Positions 17,834 to 44,492 of a stretch of 64,000 nt of DNA are shown here, one piece after another; the stretch's first letter is position 1; each line of letters begins with the position of its first letter. The translations under genes and the position numbers were made by a program. The notes under the pieces are model-generated. The model was not told the origin of the DNA. It did no database searches and saw only the letters and a list, made by a program, of their open reading frames with translations. Origin of the DNA: Pseudomonas sihuiensis (GTDB lineage: Bacteria > Pseudomonadota > Gammaproteobacteria > Pseudomonadales > Pseudomonadaceae); the NCBI RefSeq assembly GCF_900106015.1, contig NZ_LT629797.1:124001-188000 (forward strand), given 5' to 3'.

Positions 17834-17964
17834 CGAGTGCTTCCGAAAAAAGACAGGCCGCTACGTTAGCCGAGGTGCTGAGCGAATGCCGTGGGGAAAT
17901 TTCAAGCAAAGATTACAGCTGCGGCGGGTATTCTGATGCCCATGCCTTTCAAGAAATCATGGCC

Positions 17965-18378
17965 ATGCTGATCGTCTCCAACAGTGTTCACCTTCCCGAT
18001 GATGAAATCGAACTGACCGCCATCCGCGCCCAGGGCGCCGGTGGGCAGAACGTCAACAAGGTGTCCAGCGCCGTGCACCTGCGTTTCGACAGCCAGGCTT
18101 CGTCGTTGCCGCCCTTTTACAAGGAGCGCCTGCTGACGCTTGCCGACAGCCGTATCACCGCCGACGGGGTGGTGATCATCAAGGCGCAGCAGTACCGCAC
18201 TCAGGAGCAGAATCGCGCCGACGCCCTCGAGCGTCTTGCCGAGTTGATCCGCAGCGCCGGCAAGGTGGAAAAGAAACGCCGTCCGACCAAACCGACCCTC
18301 GGCTCGAAAAAGCGCCGTCTGGACGGCAAGAACAAGCGAGGGGTGATCAAGGCGGGGCGGGGCAAGGTGGATTTCTAG
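17965..18378 (+). CDS. arfB: Alternative ribosome-rescue factor / peptidyl-tRNA hydrolase ArfB
   Basis: Class-I release-factor-like protein that frees ribosomes stalled on broken mRNA. The catalytic GGQ is in RAQGAGGQNVNK, about 25 residues in, and the C-terminal basic tail (KKRRPTKPTLGSKKRRLDGKNK, in parts) enters the mRNA channel. 137 residues, like E. coli ArfB (YaeJ). I use the ATG at 17965 by alignment with ArfB; another ATG lies two codons upstream. The TAG stop is part of the CTAG that borders the palindromic element at 18375. Confidence 0.92.
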   Translation: MLIVSNSVHLPDDEIELTAIRAQGAGGQNVNKVSSAVHLRFDSQASSLPPFYKERLLTLADSRITADGVVIIKAQQYRTQEQNRADALERLAELIRSAGKVEKKRRPTKPTLGSKKRRLDGKNKRGVIKAGRGKVDF

Positions 18379-18552
18379 CAGGCCGTTGAAAAACGTCGGC
18401 GAGGCAGGCAAGACAATACCGATGGCGGCCCCGCAAAAACGGCCGAAAAAGGCACTGGGCCCGCACTCGGGTTTACGAGTTGTAAATGAGCATTTTGAGG
18501 CCGTTTTTAACGCAGTATTGCCAACGCAGGTAGTTTTTCAATGGCCTGCTAG
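18375..18552. repeat. Long palindromic element, copy B, flanked by CTAG
   Basis: 178 bases from CTAGCAGGCCGTTGAAAAAC to GTTTTTCAATGGCCTGCTAG (reverse-complementary ends). Its reverse complement aligns along its whole length with the element at 44299, including the block GGGGCCGCCATCGGTATTG. Both ends carry CTAG, consistent with a 4-base target duplication of a MITE-like element without a transposase. The left CTAG contains the arfB stop, the right CTAG the mgsA stop (read on the minus strand). The hairpin may also end both transcripts. Confidence 0.8.
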
Positions 18553-19013
18553 CCGCGTGCCGCCAGGTACGCCTGATAGTCAGGAATACGGTATTCGTGC
18601 TGCTGCTCCAGCAGGCTGCTGCTGAGCATGTAGTCGGCGCTGCTCTCGTTACAGGCTACCGGGATGTTCCACACCGCCGCCACACGCAGCAGGGCCTTGA
18701 TGTCCGGGTCGTGTGGCTGTGGCTCGAAGGGGTCCCAGAAGAACACCAGCATGTCCACGCGCTGTTCGGCGATGCGCGCGCCGATCTGCTGGTCGCCGCC
18801 CAGCGGGCCGCTGATCATGCTTTCCACCGGCAAATCCAGACGCTTGCTCAGAAGCAGGCCGGTGGTGCCAGTGGCCACCAGTTCATGGCGAGCCAGCTTG
18901 TCGCGCTGACGCTCGCACCAGTCCAGCAGGAAGCCTTTGCAGTGGTCGTGCGCCACCAGGGCGATGCGCTTGCGCGCCGGCAATTGGGCATGGGTGAAGC
19001 TGATACGGCTCAT
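18549..19013 (-). CDS. mgsA: Methylglyoxal synthase
   Basis: Converts dihydroxyacetone phosphate to methylglyoxal and phosphate, a bypass that relieves sugar-phosphate build-up. Strongly like E. coli MgsA: RKRIALVAHDHCK, ATGTTGLLLSKR, SGPLGGDQQIGA (with catalytic Asp), FFWDPFEPQPHDPD (catalytic Asp/His) and WNIPVACN. 154 residues. ATG at 19013 has AGGAGG 6 bases upstream, 13 bases after the gap stop codon, so it is very likely cotranscribed with gap. The stop codon lies inside the CTAG edge of the palindromic element. Confidence 0.95.
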   Translation of the reverse strand: MSRISFTHAQLPARKRIALVAHDHCKGFLLDWCERQRDKLARHELVATGTTGLLLSKRLDLPVESMISGPLGGDQQIGARIAEQRVDMLVFFWDPFEPQPHDPDIKALLRVAAVWNIPVACNESSADYMLSSSLLEQQHEYRIPDYQAYLAARG

Positions 19014-19026
19014 CAAGCCTCCTCGT

Positions 19027-20028
19027 TCAGTGCAGGCGGGCCAGGACCAGGCAGTTGTCCAGCATGCGGTTGGAGAAGCCCCACTCGTTGTCATACCAGG
19101 CCATGACCTTGAGCAGCTTGCCGCTGACCTTGGTGTGGTTGGCATCGAAGATCGATGACAACGGGTTGTGGTTGAAGTCGCAGGACACCAGCGGCAGCGC
19201 GTTGTAGCCCAGCACCGGGGATTTCTCGCTGGCGGCCTTGAACAGGGCGTTGACTTCCTCGGCAGTGGTCTCGCGCTTCACCTGCAGAGTCAGGTCGACC
19301 AGCGACACATTGATCACCGGCACCCGCACGGCCATGCCGGTGAGCTTGCCGGCCAGTTCCGGCAGTACCAGGCCGACCGCTTCGGCGGCACCGGTCTTGG
19401 TCGGGATCATCGACTGGGTCGCCGAACGCGCACGGTACAAATCGCTGTGGTAAACGTCGGACAGGTTCTGGTCGTTGGTATAGGCGTGAATGGTGGTCAT
19501 CAGGCCCTGTTCGATGCCCAGTTCGCGATGCAGCACCTGCGCCACCGGTGCCAGGCAGTTGGTGGTGCAGGAGGCGTTGGAAATGATCTGCATGTCAGGT
19601 GTCAGCACCTGCTCGTTGACGCCATACACCACGGTGGCGTCGGCACCCTTGGCAGGTGCGGAGATCAGCACCTTGCGTGCGCCGGCCGCGAGGTGCGCGG
19701 CGGCCTTGTCACGTTCGGTGAACAGCCCGGTGCATTCCAGCACCACATCGACCTGATGAGTTTTCCAGGGCAGCTCGGCCGGATTGCGAATGGCGCTGAC
19801 GGCGATGCGGTCACCCTTGATCCACAGGCTTTCGCCGTCCACTTTAACTTCTTCAGGGAAATGGCCGTGGACGCTGTCATATTGCAGCAGGTGGGCATTG
19901 ATCGCGCTGTCGCCCAGATCGTTGATCGCCACGACCTGCAGGTGCTGGCGATAATTCTGGGTATAGAGTGCGCGTAGCACGTTGCGACCGATACGGCCGA
20001 AGCCATTGATGGCGATGCGTAGTGTCAT
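19027..20028 (-). CDS. gap: Glyceraldehyde-3-phosphate dehydrogenase, type I
   Basis: Oxidises glyceraldehyde-3-phosphate to 1,3-bisphosphoglycerate in the lower Entner-Doudoroff/glycolytic route. It has the NAD-binding GFGRIGRN (9-16), the acidic residue in AINDL (aspartate favouring NAD over NADP), and the catalytic Cys154 in [12 protein letters not shown]. 333 residues. It is divergent from edd with a 130-base shared control region holding a HexR-type site, the arrangement known for gap-1/edd in P. putida and P. aeruginosa. mgsA follows at once. Confidence 0.96.
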
Positions 20029-43879: not shown

Positions 43880-44302
43880 ATGAGTCAGCACGAACTGCAA
43901 GATGCCCTTAACGACTGGACCGAAGCCTGCCGCAGCAAGGACGTGGCGCGCATCATGAGTCACTACGTCGAGGACGTGGTGTCCTACGATGCCATCGGCC
44001 CGTTGCGTTTTCAGGGGCGCCCGGCGTACCAGGCGCATTGGCAGGCCTGTATGGAGATGTGCAGTGGCCCGGGGATGTTCGAACCGCACGAGCCGACCTT
44101 CACCGCCAGCGGCGATCTGGGCGTGACCCATTACCTGCTGCATTGCGGCGGCAGCAATGAAAAGGGCGAGCTGGAGACCTGCTGGATGCGCGTGACCCAG
44201 TGCCTGCGCCGCCAGGGCGGCCGCTGGCTGATCTTCCACGAGCATTTCTCTGCGCCGAGTGACATGGAAAGCGGCAAGGCGCTGTTCGATCTGCAGCCCT
44301 AG
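43880..44302 (+). CDS. SnoaL/NTF2-like small protein
   Basis: 140 residues with the cone-shaped NTF2 fold signature (LNDWTEACRSKDVARIMSHYVEDVVSYD, FQGRPAYQAHW, GRWLIFHEHFSAP), similar to YybH-type ketosteroid-isomerase-like proteins. The ATG at 43880 is preceded by GAAGGAG; a GTG five codons upstream is less likely. The TAG stop lies in the CTAG border of the palindromic element at 44299. Confidence 0.8.
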   Translation: MSQHELQDALNDWTEACRSKDVARIMSHYVEDVVSYDAIGPLRFQGRPAYQAHWQACMEMCSGPGMFEPHEPTFTASGDLGVTHYLLHCGGSNEKGELETCWMRVTQCLRRQGGRWLIFHEHFSAPSDMESGKALFDLQP

Positions 44303-44492
44303 CAGGCTGTTGAAAAACTACCTGCGTTGCCATTGCTGCGTTAAAAACAGACTGGAGCGCCAGCCCGGTCGAAATACTCATTTACAACACGTAAAGTCGA
44401 GCGCGACCCCGGCCGTTTTTCGCCTGTTTTTGTGGGGCCGCCATCGGTATTGCACTGGCTTGCCTCGCCTACGTTTTTCAACGGCCTGCTAG
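44299..44492. repeat. Long palindromic element, copy C, flanked by CTAG
   Basis: 194 bases bounded by CTAG, with inverted ends AGCAGGCTGTTGAAAAAC and GTTTTTCAACGGCCTGCT. It is collinear with the reverse complement of the 18375 element (shared inner blocks TGCGTTAAAAAC, CTCATTTACAAC, GGGGCCGCCATCGGTATTG). The left CTAG carries the stop codon of the SnoaL-like gene. Confidence 0.8.

Follow-up and report, generated by a model that had tools for sequence, protein, structure and literature searches.

A MITE between arfB and mgsA that probably split a stop tetranucleotide shared by the two convergent genes

In the window analyzed here (the whole stretch of 64,000 nts of Pseudomonas sihuiensis DNA), a short element lies between the convergent genes arfB and mgsA, each of which ends in a CTAG that borders it. 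We consider it very likely, with a probability of about 0.92, that a non-autonomous MITE, moved by an ISPst12-type transposase, split a stop tetranucleotide shared by arfB and mgsA, and that the duplication kept both proteins. According to the mechanism we propose, the MITE would be mobilized in trans by an IS5-family transposase of the ISPst12 type, which would target YTAR-like tetranucleotides and duplicate 4 bp. The target here would have been a single CTAG (or TTAG) already serving as the common stop of both genes, TAR being a stop on the plus strand and YTA a stop when read on the minus strand; the duplication would then give each gene its own stop copy and change neither protein. TAA and TAG stops would in general be tolerated as targets because the duplicate restores them, and insertion would, it seems, be tolerated most readily at shared convergent stops, where it spares both genes together. 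The junction offers a clean sequence-level case of a transposon between genes overlapping by four bases, both intact, and relatives preserve empty, filled and independently refilled alleles. It is also one instance of a general habit, as YTAR sites at stop codons receive such MITEs at a much higher rate than the remaining non-coding YTAR sites.

Positions 18375-18552 of the window read as CTAG, a 170-bp element (18379..18548) and CTAG. The gene for the alternative ribosome rescue factor, arfB, occupies 17965..18378 on the plus strand (NCBIfam NF006718, E 2.3e-61; Pfam RF-1) and ends with GTG GAT TTC TAG, its TAG stop lying inside the left CTAG (18375..18378). On the minus strand, the methylglyoxal synthase gene mgsA (18549..19013; NCBIfam NF003559, E 2e-63; Pfam MGS) ends with CGC GGC TAG, and its stop lies in the right CTAG (18549..18552). 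The original prediction had described an element with inverted ends and a CTAG on each side, the left one holding the arfB stop and the right one the mgsA stop, and the arms, the coding frames and the NCBIfam matches agree with it. The left terminal inverted repeat, CAGGCCGTTGAAAAAC (18379..18394, plus strand), is identical to one end of an ISPst12-type IS, and the right repeat (18533..18548, minus strand) has one mismatch to the left one; with CTAG included, the 20-nt outer arms (18375-18394 and 18533-18552) are 95% complementary. Inside the element lies a further inverted pair. Its left arm, AAAAACGGCCGAAAAAGGC (18435..18453, plus strand), is an A-run followed by a GC stem and corresponds to helix 4 of the core hairpin discussed below; its right arm, GCATTTTGAGGCCGTTTTT (18490..18508, plus strand), is a GC stem followed by a T-run. 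Folding of 18365-18562 (198 nt) as single-stranded DNA gives -48.8 kcal/mol compared with a shuffled mean of -32.6 (z -4.7), and 0 of 200 shuffles were as low. The 170 bp allow at most 56 codons. A search of 17900-19100 with Rfam covariance models, up to E 1, gave no match in the MITE; the sole match in this region, Xoo8, lies outside the MITE and scored 12.2 bits against a cut-off of 90. The phage collection searched with the MITE yielded no match, and the whole-MITE query matched 3 plasmid records.

The element belongs to a family. BLAST returned 43 pieces of MITE copies in the own genome (5.48 Mb, one contig), and a 14-nt end pattern with at most 2 mismatches gave 57+67 matches, compared with 12+19 for the reversed control; the element is therefore not a product of chance. 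Pairing of ends produced 40 pairs, of which 3 overlapping pairings were removed, leaving 37 copies (core copies with other ends are counted neither here nor in the set of 35 used below). The left and right 4-nt flanks are identical in 16 of the 37 and agree at three or more positions in 31, and when the right flanks were shuffled, a mean of 5.2 identical pairs was obtained and none of 10,000 shuffles reached 16. It follows from these flank-pair statistics that the target is YTAR-like (CTAG, TTAA and CTAA; also GTAA and TTAC), not strictly CTAG, and that the four bases are a duplication outside the element, of which the left CTAG at arfB is one copy. The original prediction had counted it as a refutation if most copies lacked flanking CTAG. 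Taken literally this is the case, since only 8 of 37 have CTAG on both sides, but the target is the wider YTAR class, the other identical flank pairs being TTAA, CTAA, GTAA, TTAC and one TCGG. Although the inverted repeat runs unbroken into CTAG, as would be expected if CTAG were part of the repeat and nothing had been duplicated, we regard such a reading as extremely improbable: other copies have GTAA/GTAA, TTAA/TTAA, CTAA/CTAA or TTAC/TTAC, matching far above shuffles, and it is refuted by the empty sites described below, which retain one copy of the tetranucleotide.

A second copy in the window (44299..44492, minus strand; body 44303-44488) also has CTAG on both sides, lies in the orientation opposite to the first and has the stop of a SnoaL-like gene as its left CTAG. 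Across the genus, 86 of 298 genomes gave a match at E 1e-10 or better. Records of P. chengduensis contain four of the own-genome sites, among them arfB-mgsA, with unchanged flanks, and P. chengduensis DSM 26382 is identical to the window over both arfB and mgsA. The element is short and multi-copy, has terminal inverted repeats and a target-site duplication, and shares its ends with an autonomous element; it thus has every tested feature of a MITE and is one. The target use and modularity of such MITEs look under-described.

To compare the arfB-mgsA junction among relatives, the best-scoring 30 mgsA loci were read, in ten of which arfB adjoins mgsA. The site is filled in three of these ten (the own genome, G063 and G012) and empty in three, with a single CTAG in G254 and a single TTAG in G078 and G269. 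In all three empty sites the tetranucleotide holds the arfB TAG and the mgsA TAG or TAA together, which is the kind of empty site that had been predicted. Unrelated spacers separate the two genes in G064 (77 bp), G247 (19 bp) and G177 (73 bp). In G123, a different MITE copy is located exactly at the arfB stop, and in G180 a MITE copy ends at the stop of mgsA, next to which no arfB was found.

With the empty sites, the duplication and a matching IS, the insertion history that had been proposed is largely confirmed; taken singly, each empty site would look the same before insertion as after precise excision, and its direction of change is something we infer. One could therefore suppose that the filled junction is ancestral, that the single-tetranucleotide alleles are precise excisions and that the shared stops are a removal scar. 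Several observations lean this way or count against our main reading. Filled and empty alleles interleave: arfB is 99.3% identical between G012 (filled) and G254 (empty), both being about 92% identical to the own allele (92.2% for own versus G012). In the arfB+mgsA tree, whose forks are weak, the filled alleles do not come together. Moreover, the empty site of G254, CTAGCAGCG, is one base off the clean pre-insertion sequence CTAGCCGCG, and the change comes directly after CTAG. The inserts of the own genome and G012 differ by 3 substitutions and one 16-bp indel. Because these inserts are near-identical while arfB is about 8% different, the filled junction has probably also moved between lineages by recombination, or some of the empty sites are excisions.

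A second shared stop in the own genome, at position 3735925 between the convergent genes of a DUF502 protein and an Lrp/AsnC-like regulator, bears on the same question. This site was sought in ten relatives, nine of which matched (all but G287); in G269 and G223 the match ends short of the site and no state was assigned. It is empty in G012 (one TTAG) and in G064 and G078 (one TTAA), both stops being contained in the four bases. The others are filled: in G254 by a CAGGC-ended MITE that lies in the opposite orientation, in G063 and G177 by a MITEPsy1-like element whose left end agrees with MITEPsy1, as given in the accessible part of its description, at 16 of 18 bases counted by eye, and in G247 by a core element whose ends are AACCTGTTC/GAGCCTTTTC-like. 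Counting the own genome and these four relatives, one tetranucleotide has thus received four different inserts, among which three kinds of ends occur. BLAST comparison of G254 with G012 at this site gave a 154-bp insert with an overlap of exactly 4 bases, and the two genomes form a reciprocal pair, G012 having an insert at arfB-mgsA but none at the second site, and G254 the reverse. Four different inserts in the same four bases need repeated insertion, not repeated excision of one, and the differing empty tetranucleotides (CTAG and TTAG at arfB-mgsA; TTAG and TTAA here) are what an ancient shared stop would show after drift. We therefore judge the excision scenario improbable and prefer insertion into a shared stop.

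The position of copies relative to stop codons was then examined genome-wide. Coding frames were called by our own codon-usage score, which was trained on this genome and also applied to the other species, and a copy was assigned to a stop if the last three bases of its left flank, or the mirror in its right flank, close a coding frame. For this count, the left end at 2356811 was re-paired and two doubtful pairings of the 37 were removed (4663480, with a wrong right end, and 1050465, which is weak), giving 35 copies. Seventeen of the 35 lie exactly on a stop codon, compared with 81 of 1004 non-coding YTAR sites (binomial p 2.8e-10); the null is restricted to YTAR sites, and not all of the 35 copies have YTAR flanks. 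This null, from 864 kb of the same genome under a stricter coding filter, is less favorable to our reading than an earlier and smaller one (40 of 614 sites in 464 kb). The excess persists when only sites close to gene ends are compared: sites at a stop versus those 1-150 nt downstream number 17:10 among the copies and 81:240 in the null (Fisher p 9e-5), and with 1-50 nt downstream the ratios are 17:4 and 81:110 (p 9e-4). All four tetranucleotides are stops at similar rates (7-11% of non-coding sites), and a preference for CTAG thus does not explain the enrichment. One of the 17 copies (1230056) is on a TGA stop, with flanks TGAA/TCAG. Pfam matches were obtained for 18 of the 19 genes at the 17 stop sites, and the remaining gene has a TGA stop and flanks that are not YTAR. 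Among 47 CAGGC-ended copies in other genomes, 20 occupy a stop codon; setting aside four that repeat own-genome sites leaves 16 of 43. Two of the 35 copies are on two convergent stops at once; the 1004 null sites, from 864 kb, include one such case (Fisher p 0.003), and shared stops of this kind seem scarce in any one genome. Nine GGTTCTGT-ended copies, all of them off stop codons and with unmatched flanks, were tallied as well, but this tally was excluded since the element boundary had been wrongly set.

About half of the MITE copies being at gene ends, the enrichment could also be adaptive, with the hairpin acting as a bidirectional terminator and inserts between convergent genes being kept for blocking read-through. 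The inner hairpin has T-runs on both strands, its stems covary strongly in 42 core sequences, and a short sibling copy has an RNA fold well below its shuffles (z -6.25). On the other hand, the inner part of the present copy has an RNA fold that improves little on its shuffles (z -0.64 and -1.35), and a simple terminator scan with a loop limit of 8 nt found no terminator within the MITE, although a long-loop stem with T-runs is visible. Tolerance alone explains the location at stops. We thus find the adaptive explanation rather unlikely, if less so than excision, and infer that tolerance plus target choice, rather than benefit, drives the enrichment.

As for the parent transposon, a 31-nt end query matched 118 plasmid records, and eight of the 60 listed were read. 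An IS-sized end pair around a transposase frame was present in five of these eight regions and absent in three. On two P. putida plasmids, an ISPst12-type IS of 1331 bp is annotated, one end of which is CAGGCCGTTGAAAAAC and which has CTAG on both sides; both records also annotate an msr(E) gene, roughly 0.4 kb away from the IS. Its transposase scored as IS5 family (NF033581, E 1.5e-78), and in the genus search six copies each, with 100% identity over the whole protein, were found in G012 and G254. The flanks in copies read are CTAG/CTAG, TTAG/TTAG and, in a copy with the transposase in two pieces, CTAG/TTAG. This IS resembles the MITE in its ends, CAGGCCGTTGAAAAA(C), with 15-16 nt shared, and in its CTAG/CTAG flanks; it differs in its size and transposase, and in the printed ends that were compared, the subterminal sequence is dissimilar past these 15-16 nt. 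The MITE therefore does not appear to have arisen from ISPst12 by simple internal deletion.

The search for a full-length parent that had been suggested along with the original prediction was accordingly successful: an IS with the same ends exists on the P. putida plasmids and in G012 and G254. In the own genome, the ISPst12-type transposase was not found, the sole hits being at 32% identity, which counts against our main reading; so the mover was lost from the genome, or came and went. It was presumably a transposase of this type that moved the arfB-mgsA copy. Three other parents were considered and dropped. In the own genome, the seven PF13751 (IS1182-like) elements differ from the MITE in ends and flanks; they are of three sequence types, with GGCC on both sides in five, GGCA/GGCA in one and GGCC/TGCC in one. 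IS701-type DDE_5 transposases (PF13546) matched in 2 of 149 genomes, the own genome not among them, and DUF4096 (PF13340) IS5-type transposases in 15 of 57 genomes, with none in the own genome. None of the 30 PF13340 loci fetched and scanned has a MITE-type end pair, and some have CTAG flanks.

The hairpin core of the MITE is found in many genomes. The loop pattern TTTACNNNNTGTAAATGAGCATTTTGA occurs in at least 120 stretches among genome records, and the core matches listed come from records labelled Pseudomonas, Stutzerimonas, Halomonadaceae, Nitrosomonas, Methylococcaceae and others, of which several are metagenome-assembled. Two metagenome-assembled contigs labelled Bacteroidaceae and Alistipes contain the core loop motif in otherwise different surroundings, which may reflect convergence, contamination or a distant relative. 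Across genomes, and also within the own genome, the same core is found with several kinds of terminal repeats; nine own-genome core copies have ends of the GGGCACCTCTAAAAAC, GGGTCTGTACGAAAAGT, GAGGGTGTCTACAAAAT and GAGCCTGCTCAGGATC types. Nested within one arm of five copies is a segment, a few tens of bases long (parts of CTCGGCT...CTCCTGCATCCATGCAGTCGT), that may be a separate small element inserting into the MITE. Forty-nine stretches passed the layout filter, and the 42 that were aligned form one long hairpin in which 95.1% of cells pair. Both sides changed in 25 of 43 pairs, and 271 double-change cells were counted, whereas shuffling gave 92.6 and sliding no more than 59. The apparent invariance of the loop is a consequence of the search pattern, which required it. 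A tree of 68 cores (28 of 96 rows without an end label were removed, and 49 matches of other layout skipped) gave 13 end-type changes, where the least possible is 6 and the shuffled mean 28.1; the tree is weak and L170 is mislabelled as CAGGC-ended, so these numbers are only indicative. Probably, then, new ends were acquired around a conserved hairpin, and this raises two questions: how a palindrome can have both of its ends replaced in concert, and whether the hairpin serves its host.

A broader and more tentative idea, which we hold possible but would not yet favor, is that shared YTAR stops are preferred docking sites for modular hairpins with a covarying core, whose terminal repeats have been exchanged several times and which can be moved by different IS5-type transposases. 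Each landing would then make two genes that overlap by four bases separate, with a hairpin between them and both proteins unchanged, and so resolve the overlap. The rule suggested by our data is that transposons with YTAR-like targets should accumulate on the stop codons of GC-rich genomes, and most of all on shared convergent stops.

A literature search by title and abstract opening gave no report of this MITE family or of a shared-stop insertion, and the core and end motif strings do not occur in the literature searched. A review of prokaryotic MITEs mentions intergenic and 3' UTR locations, and the terms 'stop codon' and 'convergent' are absent from its accessible part (PMC10969869). The repeats R178, R0 and R2 of P. 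fluorescens are, like our MITE, multi-copy and intergenic, and R0 and R2 share inverted repeats with IS elements; as described in the accessible part of that study, they are set apart by lengths of 101 bp (R178, with internal 11-bp repeats), 89 bp (R0) and 110 bp (R2), and R178 was dropped as an identity on account of its 101 bp (PMC2718517). Judging from the accessible part of its report, the nearest described case is MITEPsy1 of P. syringae pv. phaseolicola, which was trapped while transposing, duplicates CTAG or YTAA and was suggested to derive from ISPsy2, an IS5-family IS (PMC3189936). Both MITEPsy1 and the arfB-mgsA MITE are short and gene-less, with inverted repeats and a CTAG/YTAA duplication, whereas MITEPsy1 is 100 nt long and has other terminal repeats, GGAAGGTCTGAAAAAGCC (PMC3189936).
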